A DNA stretch of 64,000 bases from Reyranella sp. (GTDB taxonomy: Bacteria; Pseudomonadota; Alphaproteobacteria; Reyranellales; Reyranellaceae): positions 1 to 64,000 of the forward strand of contig JAQSDW010000196.1 of the NCBI GenBank assembly GCA_029946105.1, in the 5' to 3' direction. Under the pieces are notes generated by a model that saw only the letters and a program-made list of their open reading frames with translations, was not told the DNA's origin and searched no databases. The position numbers and the translations under genes are program-made. This document shows, in pieces, positions 12,958 through 16,091 of this stretch (within the stretch, counting starts at the first letter, position 1; every line of letters starts with the position of its first letter).

Positions 12958-13509
12958 TTAGCGAGCGCGGTAGCCGGCCGTGACTTCGTCCTTGTGGGCG
13001 GCGAAGGCCGCCAGGACTTCGGCCTTTTCGCGCTGCGGGACCTTGACGAGGTCCAAGGTCCGTCCGAGTTCCGCGGCGACCTCGTCGAATTCTGCGGGGG
13101 AAATCCGGAGAGTTCGGTGGGCCTCCTCAAGGCCGAGCGGCGTCTTGCCGGGCTTGGTGGGCGTGAACTGGAAAGGCCCACCGGAAACGTTGCAGACCCA
13201 CAGCGTCCGCATGAACTTGAGGCCGGGCAACCTTCCCAGGTTCTTGGTGTGCCATTCCCGCAGCTGCGGGTTTTGGGAGTTCTGGCCGACGATGGGATTC
13301 TTCACGACGGCGTCGCTGAAGTGATCCACCACCGCCGCGATGGCGAAGACGCCACCCAGCCGCTCGTACAGTGTTTTCTCAGGCATGGTTTGCTGGGCCT
13401 GTGCGTACGCGCCATCTACCCCCGCCAATACAGCCACCGCGGCGGCGGTCAGCGTCAGCCCGGCGGCCGCGCTTCGTCTCGTCATCGGGGTCGAAACAGC
13501 CCTTGTCAT
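12958..13509 (-). CDS. Exported truncated hemoglobin, group 1-like
   Basis: A 183-residue protein with an N-terminal twin-arginine-like signal (MTRRSAAAGLTLTAAA, cleavage after AYAQA) and a small globin domain that starts with LYERLGGVFAIAAVVDHF. The likely proximal heme histidine is in GLEEAHRTLRIS. I chose the ATG at 13509 because AAGGAG lies 6 nt upstream; ATG 13515 would overlap that site. Truncated globins bind O2 or NO, and a signal peptide would place this one in the periplasm. It follows the sigma/anti-sigma gene by 59 bp on the same strand, so it is probably part of that regulator's own operon and regulon. Confidence 0.78.
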   Translation of the reverse strand: MTRAVSTPMTRRSAAAGLTLTAAAVAVLAGVDGAYAQAQQTMPEKTLYERLGGVFAIAAVVDHFSDAVVKNPIVGQNSQNPQLREWHTKNLGRLPGLKFMRTLWVCNVSGGPFQFTPTKPGKTPLGLEEAHRTLRISPAEFDEVAAELGRTLDLVKVPQREKAEVLAAFAAHKDEVTAGYRAR

Positions 13510-13568
13510 GGTCATCTCCTTGGTGATGGGGGTACGCCAAACTCCGCCTGCCGCTCGATGCGCACGTC

Positions 13569-14519
13569 TCAGCGCAGCAGGGCGATCGCCAGCAGGACAA
13601 CCGTCACGGCGAGCACGCCGCTGGCCGTCCGCCAGAGCCGTGGCCGCGCGAACGCCACGCGCTCGGGTACAATTCGCAGTTCGATGTTTTTCCAGACCTG
13701 CGGTCGCGGCAGCGCCGGGGCCAGCGTTTCGGTCAGCAGCGCGAAGCGATCCTCCCACTGGTCGACGGCCCGGCAATAGCGCGCGTCGCGCTCGCGGCGT
13801 CTCTCGAAGCCGCGCCGCACCGCGCCGTGCAGGCCGCCGACGGCGTATTCAGCGGCGACCAGCTCGCGCCAGCCGGCGTCCGAGCCGCCGGTGAGACAGC
13901 GGTTCATCTGCGCCAGGCCGCGACGGACCCAGCTCTTGGCGGTACCAAGTTGGACGTCGAGGCGCTTGGCCAACTCGCTGTGCGTCAGGCCCTCGAAGTA
14001 CGCCAGCGTCAAGGCGCGGCGATGGTTGGCCGGCAGATTGGCGAGACAGGCATTGACCCGCCGGGCGTCGTCGCTCCGTATTGCCTGGTCGGCGGGATCA
14101 AGATCCGCCGATGCGAACATGTCACCTTTGATTTCGTCGTGACCGTCCTCGCGCCGATGAAGTGCTTCGCGCGCCGTCAGCGCGCGGTTGCGCACGATCC
14201 GTACCAGCCAGCCATAGGCCGTGCCCTTGTCGGGATCGTATCGATGCGCCCACCGCCAGATGCGTACGAACGAGTCCTGCAGTACGTCCTCGGCGACGTC
14301 GCTGCGTCCGCCGACAATGCTCCGCGCGATCGCCAACAGCCGCCCCGCGGTCAGCTCGTAGAGTCGCGCGAAGGCGGATTCGCGGCCGGCGGCGGTCTCG
14401 GCCAGCAGGAGGGCAAGCGCGTCGAACGAACCGCTCGGGGACGGTGTGTGCGGATTGGTAAGCGAGGCCGCGCCGCGCAGCCGGGTCATGCCCCTGCCAA
14501 GACTGAGGATTTCGACCAT
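13569..14519 (-). CDS. ECF sigma factor fused to a membrane anti-sigma domain
   Basis: A 316-residue chain, start ATG 14519 with AAAGGAG 8 nt upstream. Residues about 45-112 are sigma region 2 (DVAEDVLQDSFVRIWRWA), and about 152-208 are region 4 (LPANHRRALTLAYFEGLTHS, then the GTAKSWVRRGLAQM helix). Without a stop the chain continues into an anti-sigma segment, WRELVAAEYAVGGL at about 217-230 and AVDQWEDRFALLTETLAP at about 251-268. This is the N-terminal layout of RskA/ChrR-like anti-sigma proteins. The chain ends with a transmembrane helix at about 298-315 and has no periplasmic domain. The usual arrangement is two overlapping genes. The truncated globin gene follows. Confidence 0.8.
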   Translation of the reverse strand: MVEILSLGRGMTRLRGAASLTNPHTPSPSGSFDALALLLAETAAGRESAFARLYELTAGRLLAIARSIVGGRSDVAEDVLQDSFVRIWRWAHRYDPDKGTAYGWLVRIVRNRALTAREALHRREDGHDEIKGDMFASADLDPADQAIRSDDARRVNACLANLPANHRRALTLAYFEGLTHSELAKRLDVQLGTAKSWVRRGLAQMNRCLTGGSDAGWRELVAAEYAVGGLHGAVRRGFERRRERDARYCRAVDQWEDRFALLTETLAPALPRPQVWKNIELRIVPERVAFARPRLWRTASGVLAVTVVLLAIALLR

Positions 14520-14798
14520 CAATCCAGCTCCTTTGGATTCACTACCCGCCAAACCGCGATTTGGATGCACTGCATCCGTTTCGCCAAAGCCTAGGCTCTC
14601 TTCGAGGAACGACACTTCGTCGGGGGTCGAACCCGCGGGAGAACGCCATGTCGTCATCGAGACTACGACCCGCCGCCTCTTCCTGTTCCGGATTCGGCAG
14701 TTCACGACTTCGGCATATGCAATTGCCTGCTGACTGCGACCTGAATCATGAAGACGGGCTACTGGAGTAGCCTGCCTTTGGCGGGCTAAACTCGAGTC
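14520..14798. other. Intergenic region between sigma gene and pcaH, with a palindrome
   Basis: No convincing gene lies here. At 14563-14577 there is a perfect palindrome GGATGCA-C-TGCATCC, about 45 bp upstream of the sigma-factor start on the minus strand, which could be an operator. I could not assign -35/-10 elements with confidence for either divergent gene. Confidence 0.35.
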
Positions 14799-15497
14799 AT
14801 GAAAGAGGAAACCTACCGCCGGCCGGCTCCGGGCCAGCATCCGCCCAACCGGTCCGAAGGTTACAAATCGACGACCGGGCGCTCGCCGGCCAAGCCCGCG
14901 ATCGTGCTGCCCCAGACCTTGTCGGAAATCACCGGGCCCTTGTTGGTCGAGGAACGGCTCGGCGCGCTGGAGAACGATCTCACGCGCCAGCGCATGGGGC
15001 CGCCGCTCGGCGAGCGTATCATCGTGCACGGCCGCGTGCTCGACGAGGACGGCAAGGCCGTGCCCAACGCCCTGGTCGAGATCTGGCAATGCAACGCTGC
15101 CGGCCGATATCATCATCCGGACGACCAGCACGATGCGCCGCTCGATCCCAATTTCTACGGCGGCGGACGGGCGCGCGCCGATACCGACGGCCACTACAAA
15201 TTCATCACGGTGAAGCCCGGCGCCTATCCGTGGGGCAACCACAAGAATGCCTGGCGGCCGGCGCATATCCATTTCTCGCTGTTTGGGCCCGCCTTCGCCA
15301 CGCGCCTGATCACGCAGATGTATTTCCCCAACGATCCGGTGCTGGCCTACGACCCGATCTACAACGCCGTGCCCGAGGGTGCGCGCCATCGCCTGCAGGC
15401 GGCCTTCGACATGGAGGGCACGCAGCCGGAATGGGCGCTGGCCTACAAGTTCGACATCGTGCTGCGCGGCCGCAACGCTACACCCCTTGAATCCTGA
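14799..15497 (+). CDS. pcaH: Protocatechuate 3,4-dioxygenase beta subunit
   Basis: Catalytic, iron-carrying subunit of the intradiol dioxygenase that opens protocatechuate to beta-carboxymuconate; 232 residues. The four Fe(III) ligands are visible: Tyr104 (GRYHHPDD), Tyr143 (GAYPWGN), and His156 and His158 (RPAHIHFS). The conserved WQCNAAGRY and VHGRVLDEDG motifs of the beta chain are present. pcaG follows 6 bp later, so the two chains are made together for the (alpha-beta) oligomer. No other pca-pathway genes (pcaB, pcaC, pcaD) are nearby. Confidence 0.93.
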   Translation: MKEETYRRPAPGQHPPNRSEGYKSTTGRSPAKPAIVLPQTLSEITGPLLVEERLGALENDLTRQRMGPPLGERIIVHGRVLDEDGKAVPNALVEIWQCNAAGRYHHPDDQHDAPLDPNFYGGGRARADTDGHYKFITVKPGAYPWGNHKNAWRPAHIHFSLFGPAFATRLITQMYFPNDPVLAYDPIYNAVPEGARHRLQAAFDMEGTQPEWALAYKFDIVLRGRNATPLES

Positions 15498-15503
15498 AGC
15501 TGG

Positions 15504-16091
15504 ATGCCAAGCATGCCTCATGGCCTGACGCCCTCGCAGACGATCGGGCCGTTCTATTGGGGCACCGTGGTCAGCACCTGTCGCGCCGAGCTGGCGCCGC
15601 GCGGCGTGGCCGGCGAGCGTATCGAGATCGTGCTAACCTTGCACGACGTCGACGGCAAGGTGGTCACCGACGGGCTGCTCGAACTCTGGCAGGCCAACAG
15701 TCACGGCCGCTACAACCATCCCGAGGATCGCCGCAATCTGCCGCTCGACGCAGGCTTCGAGGGCTTCGGCCGCGCCTCGACCGATGGCGACGGCTCTGCG
15801 CATTTCGGCACGGTGAAGCCCGGCCGCGTGCCGTGGCCACATGATGGAGGGCAGGGCGGCGGCTTGCAGGCGCCGCACATCAACATCTCCGTCTTCGCGC
15901 GCGGGGTGCTGAACCGCCTCGCGACCCGGCTCTATTTCGACGGCGACCCGGCGCTGGCCGAGGATCCGGTCCTGAAGCTGGTCGAGCCGGCGCGGCGCGG
16001 CACGCTGCTGGCCAAGTGCGACGCCAAGGGTGTCTGGCGCCTGCCGATCCATCTCGGCGGCGCGCAGGAGACGGTCTTTTTCGAGAGCTGA
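15504..16091 (+). CDS. pcaG: Protocatechuate 3,4-dioxygenase alpha subunit
   Basis: Partner subunit of PcaH, 195 residues. It has the alpha-chain opening GLTPSQTIGPFYWGTV and the shared beta-sandwich landmarks LWQANSHGRYNHP and APHINISVFARG. The second histidine ligand of the beta chain is replaced (HINIS), as expected for the non-iron subunit. It ends 3 bp from the convergent SMP-30-type gene. The start could be the ATG at 15504 or the one at 15513. Confidence 0.92.
   Translation: MPSMPHGLTPSQTIGPFYWGTVVSTCRAELAPRGVAGERIEIVLTLHDVDGKVVTDGLLELWQANSHGRYNHPEDRRNLPLDAGFEGFGRASTDGDGSAHFGTVKPGRVPWPHDGGQGGGLQAPHINISVFARGVLNRLATRLYFDGDPALAEDPVLKLVEPARRGTLLAKCDAKGVWRLPIHLGGAQETVFFES

Follow-up and report, generated by a model that had tools for sequence, protein, structure and literature searches.

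A SigK-RskA-type sigma/anti-sigma fusion without periplasmic sensor in Reyranella and its relatives

A gene found in a 64,000-nucleotide stretch of a Reyranella sp. contig (JAQSDW010000196.1, positions 1 to 64,000, hereafter the window) encodes an ECF18/19-like sigma factor and a cytoplasmic RskA-type anti-sigma domain joined in one polypeptide; as is evident from the sequences of this and kindred proteins, the periplasmic RskA_C part has been lost, and a C-terminal membrane anchor is present in most members. The explanation we favour, which has in our estimate an even chance of being right, is that the protein represents a single-chain SigK-RskA module that would be inhibited in cis, mostly anchored by its tail and opened by a signal from the cytoplasm, perhaps of thiol nature.

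Layout of the fused gene

The gene occupies positions 13569..14519 of the minus strand as an uninterrupted frame running from ATG over 316 amino acids to the stop codon, with no internal stop. Sigma region 2 was matched at residues 53-118 (Sigma70_r2, PF04542, E 1.9e-14; 14166..14363, minus strand) and region 4 at residues 154-205 (Sigma70_r4_2, PF08281, E 1.7e-12; 13905..14060, minus strand), region 3 being absent, which is the domain content of ECF sigma factors. The top NCBIfam model is that of SigK (PRK09646, 5.8e-37, a match below the curated cut-off of this model) and the nearest solved relative by sequence is SigK 4nqw_A; by likeness rather than by ECF group models, the sigma part appears to be SigK-like (ECF18/19-like), SigK being its nearest characterised counterpart. 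Residues ~214-290 (13650..13880, minus strand) have no Pfam match, and a profile of this segment finds stand-alone RskA-/ChrR-like anti-sigma factors of relatives with E-values mostly from 1e-6 to 8e-22 (best 7.7e-22). Judged by these profile matches together with a confident predicted fold, the segment is a complete cytoplasmic RskA-type anti-sigma domain. The protein ends exactly with a putative membrane helix (residues 298-316; 13572..13628, minus strand; mean Kyte-Doolittle hydropathy 2.13 over 19 residues, 0 residues beyond), so that no periplasmic RskA_C follows, and PF10099 is unmatched anywhere in the genome. The succession of a cytoplasmic anti-sigma domain and one membrane helix is that of RskA, but RskA is separate from its sigma factor while here both are parts of one chain. 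Translation, Pfam, profile and hydropathy data agree in this with an earlier sequence-only reading, which had described ECF regions 2 and 4, an RskA-like segment and a final helix in a single frame. That reading did not extend to the missing periplasmic sensor, to the conserved genes taken here as targets or to their loss in the window.

Spread and origin of the fusion

The same fusion was recovered in 17 genomes including that of the window: 76 genomes of the order yielded 15 (the window's own counted), to which a member of another family (G046) and a MAG contig (L032) are added, the 16 other proteins sharing ~39-76% identity with that of the window. When 385 genomes were sampled evenly across the class, only G000, G016 and G046 carried it; the fusion is rare and lineage-bound. 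Orthologues of the kind that the sequence-only reading proposed to look for thus exist, and its refuting case, in which close relatives all carry two separate genes, does not hold. A sequencing or assembly error might be suspected of having merged two overlapping genes, as most relatives outside the family show an ATGA-type overlap at the junction site, but the junction is in frame in seventeen genomes and its codons 205-217 (13869..13907, minus strand), the stretch singled out earlier for verification, are open in every fused relative read, by which this explanation is already refuted and its probability brought next to nil. Since the fused frame is kept in 17 genomes with dN/dS of 0.13-0.35 over the sigma and anti-sigma domains, it is far beyond chance.

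Relatives outside the family have sigma and anti-sigma factors encoded by two overlapping genes, with ATGA as a frequent form of the overlap, and the anti-sigma partners are of two types: RskA with helix and RskA_C domain, or a soluble protein combining the same anti-sigma domain with a ChrR cupin (Cupin_7). In the tree built for sigma plus anti-sigma, all 12 fused proteins included constitute one clade (95/90), with a two-gene system possessing full RskA and a Ferritin_2 gene beside it as the sister (81/75); C249 and an RRR..DA motif are shared by 12 of 12 aligned fused proteins. The two-gene loci L078, L079, L084, L086, L048 and L095 belong to the same sigma clade, have the same anti-sigma domain as the fusion and adjoin Ferritin_2, but their genes are separate, overlapping and provided with a sensor (RskA_C or Cupin_7), whereas the fusion has none. 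Two independent fusions were considered on account of the sigma-only tree, which put L032 among two-gene rows (89/72), and were discarded in view of the single clade given by the combined tree and of the shared C249 and RRR..DA motif. Most simply, the family would stem from one fusion event accompanied by the loss of the periplasmic RskA_C sensor, with the inhibitor retained.

Several arrangements of related genes are worth recording. In two distant loci, L112 (G434) and L113 (G611), sigma and anti-sigma genes lie in the same frame with one TGA between them, implying that such a fusion needs little; these loci are a possible model of fusion origin, or of stop-codon readthrough. Beside Ferritin_2 and cytochrome c genes, L048, L084, L086 and L095 encode an ECF sigma factor and a soluble anti-sigma factor with RskA-type domain and ChrR cupin, L086 having apparently two such anti-sigma genes. 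Among the fused proteins themselves, that of L126 (G786) lacks the C-terminal membrane helix and that of L123 (G036) has a weak, nearly lost one, so that soluble natural versions of the fusion may exist.

Ferritin_2/cytochrome c neighbourhood and predicted promoters

Ferritin_2 adjoins the fused gene in all 16 other loci, in 15 of them together with a c-type cytochrome, and its products have, by inspection, an apparent export signal. In the order the Ferritin_2 gene is divergent, while in L042 and L032 it lies downstream in the same direction; survival of the linkage despite changed gene order argues for function. In every fused locus but L032 (16 of 17), the motif GCATCC-N16-GGTA stands upstream of the projected sigma start at a distance of 4-24 bases, and GCATCC-N16/17-GGTT or GGTA precedes Ferritin_2 by 34-63 bases in 16 of the 16 other fused loci; the two-gene neighbours L078 and L079 have the latter motif ahead of their Ferritin_2 genes as well. 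In the window, the predicted own promoter GCATCC-N16-GGTA (14543..14568, minus strand) ends 23 bases upstream of the ATG. Its -35 part GCATCC resembles the CCATCC reported for SigK. Very probably, the open form of the protein would read GCATCC-N16/17-GGTW before its own gene and before the exported Ferritin_2/cytochrome c operon, and such targets suggest handling of iron, redox state or oxidants outside the cytoplasm.

Genome-wide, motif matches numbered 13 versus 4 for a reversed-pattern control in G000 and 11 versus 8 in G016, that is, modestly above the control and close to background, so promoters are claimed at the locus only and a genome-wide regulon was not derived from the motif. One match in the window (14837-14862, plus strand) is inside a dioxygenase ORF and was taken as chance. 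G016 also contains a second Ferritin_2/cytochrome c pair (L134, 3900000-3907000), 90% and 77% identical to the pair of L033, with no sigma gene nearby and no promoter motif.

The species of the window is a special case. Its genome (98% complete) has no Ferritin_2 gene, while the nearest kin, G796 and G809, retain both ferritin and cytochrome c genes. Next to the fused gene, on the plus strand, there are a remnant of the divergent ferritin promoter (14572..14597), in which GCATCC is kept and GGTT mutated to GGCT, and a decayed, frame-shifted 5′ end of Ferritin_2 comprising ribosome site, start and signal peptide (14637..14730). The latter was delineated by alignment to nine relatives with scores of 40-75, in every case higher than any of 200 shuffles gave; since one of three control alignments to adjoining DNA reached 53, the weaker single matches of the relic are not to be leaned on. 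Read from these alignments, the species has lost the Ferritin_2/cytochrome c operon, of which a decayed 5′ end remains. The sigma promoter and the ferritin promoter remnant are placed back to back, with an inverted repeat at 14556-14584, and two adjacent genes following the relic (14799-16091, plus strand) look by eye like subunits of an intradiol (protocatechuate 3,4-) dioxygenase.

On the other side, separated from the end of the sigma gene by 53 bases, an exported truncated globin is encoded downstream (12958..13515, minus strand; PF01152, E 4.7e-7), probably co-transcribed with it. The globin is absent from all 60 relatives searched, occurring only in this genome among 61, and was for this reason ruled out as a conserved partner. 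In the window's species, the self-promoter most likely drives the sigma gene together with this globin, and the fused protein may have outlived its ancestral neighbour and become rewired.

The missing Ferritin_2 and the relic beside the gene might also be expected if the window copy had become roleless upon the operon loss and were drifting. We find such decay very improbable, because the promoter is intact, no stop interrupts the frame, and dN/dS against the nearest kin L124 and L125 is 0.13-0.19 for the sigma part and 0.24-0.31 for the anti-sigma domain, values in which part of the measured selection predates the loss. Judged by these ratios, purifying selection acts on both halves of the window copy. 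In the short helix, dN/dS against the same kin is ~0.75-1.1; what is conserved there is hydrophobicity, not sequence.

Control of a sigma factor clamped in its own chain

An AlphaFold model based on 61 aligned rows reached a pTM of 0.79 with pLDDT of ~91-97 in the anti-sigma domain (an earlier one with 12 rows, pTM 0.37, was too weak for use). Its sigma part superimposes on RskA-bound SigK with all 148 residues at 3.6 A (Z 14.9), as opposed to 21-28 A on polymerase-bound ECF sigma factors. The sigma factor is thus predicted to be closed and clamped in cis as in the SigK-RskA crystal, a structure on which the model may lean through the training set. At rest, the anti-sigma domain would most probably fold back and clamp regions 2 and 4 in the manner of RskA on SigK.

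By alignment, Cys158 (14046..14048, minus strand) and Cys208 (13896..13898, minus strand) correspond to SigK C133 and C183, with the same 50-residue spacing. In SigK both are required for activity and for activation by RskA (PMC7509140). The same pair is present in 27 of 27 two-gene relatives; being general in the sigma group, it is alone no pointer to a sensor specific for the fusion. Cys249 of the anti-sigma domain (13773..13775, minus strand) is, by its invariance in the 12 aligned fused proteins and its absence at this place in stand-alone relatives, peculiar to the fusion. With no periplasmic sensor, sensing of a signal or release must go another way. With less assurance, we suppose that a cytoplasmic, probably thiol or redox, change at C158/C208, perhaps with participation of C249, opens the clamp while the halves stay joined, and that the membrane tail would hold the protein as the clamp opens. 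In its fullest form the proposal reads that a sensor-less, tail-anchored sigma factor, thiol-switched in cis through C158, C208 and C249 with neither separation nor proteolysis, transcribes the Ferritin_2/cytochrome c operon at the membrane; stated so specifically, it is less likely to be right than not.

The sequence-only reading had offered two outcomes, namely release by proteolysis or action of the sigma part while tethered. As a dichotomy, these are not supported in the form stated. Opening of the clamp in cis is a third route that suits the data no less well, given a fused relative without helix and another with a weak one, the kept redox-sensitive cysteine pair of SigK and the circumstance that a cut within the helix leaves the anti-sigma domain attached. 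In the proteolytic scheme, the site-2 protease RseP would cut the tail-less helix, constitutively or on a signal, and another protease would then remove the anti-sigma domain. An RseP-type protease is encoded in the genome (G000:C216, E 2.1e-68), and there is a precedent for RseP cleavage in short-tailed variants of Pseudomonas putida IutY, where fewer than ~50 periplasmic residues make cleavage RseP-dependent, Prc-independent and the protein active without signal (PMC5411451). Yet the anti-sigma part of IutY is periplasmic, so that the cut frees sigma, whereas here the cytoplasmic clamp stays attached and processive degradation from the clamp end would threaten the sigma part itself; moreover, the helix is missing in L126 and weak in L123. 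As a cut leaves the clamp in place and the helix is dispensed with in G786 and weak in G036, we rank opening in place above proteolysis, which we consider unlikely, though it is the chief alternative.

Less probable again is a constitutive tethered activator, in which the RskA-type domain would hold sigma in a highly active state and control would be exerted by transcription only. Such a role has a parallel in Y. enterocolitica, where RskA truncated in its periplasmic part (1-179) strongly activates SigK, the SigK cysteines being needed (PMC7509140), and the predicted own promoter makes positive feedback possible. However, the cytoplasmic domain of RskA alone (1-85) inhibits (PMC7509140), the activating 1-179 form retains roughly half of the periplasmic part that is missing in the fusion, and the AlphaFold model is closed.

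In its architecture, the family differs from the closest known systems. SigK-RskA (ECF18/19; M. tuberculosis, Y. enterocolitica) shares with it the sigma type, the cysteine pair, the cytoplasmic domain followed by one helix and the predicted clamp, but consists of two proteins, has a periplasmic RskA_C and is neighboured by mpt70/83, whereas the fusion is one chain without RskA_C next to Ferritin_2/cytochrome c genes. Fusions of sigma and anti-sigma factors are already known as IutY/ECF243, ECF48/52/53 and some ECF36 (PMC8999054). IutY of P. putida (ECF243) likewise unites both functions in one membrane polypeptide, but in the order sigma, helix and periplasmic anti-sigma coupled to a TonB receptor (PMC5411451), while in the window protein the anti-sigma domain is cytoplasmic, precedes the helix and is followed by nothing periplasmic. 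The actinobacterial ECF48, ECF52 (SCO4117) and ECF53 resemble the fusion in their C-terminal anti-sigma domain and membrane helix, but their anti-sigma domains are zinc fingers and ECF52 has in addition a periplasmic proline-rich region and a carbohydrate-binding domain (PMC8999054); the fusion has neither, C249 being in the alignment the sole cysteine of its anti-sigma domain, which is therefore no ZAS zinc finger. The open-access literature yielded no account of a SigK-RskA fusion, of a fusion with clamp kept and sensor lost or of its link to Ferritin_2/cytochrome c.

In the usual account of sigma/anti-sigma control, two proteins part after an outside signal, whereas in this conserved natural family the clamp is retained, parting is impossible and the outside sensor is absent. 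The fusion may serve as a test of whether RskA-type regulation, including the reported activator role of RskA, proceeds by opening in place or by release, and it also offers a switch made of a single gene, for which a promoter is predicted. It further draws attention to an exported Ferritin_2/cytochrome c operon, apparently unstudied, that is under several kinds of anti-sigma factors in alphaproteobacteria.
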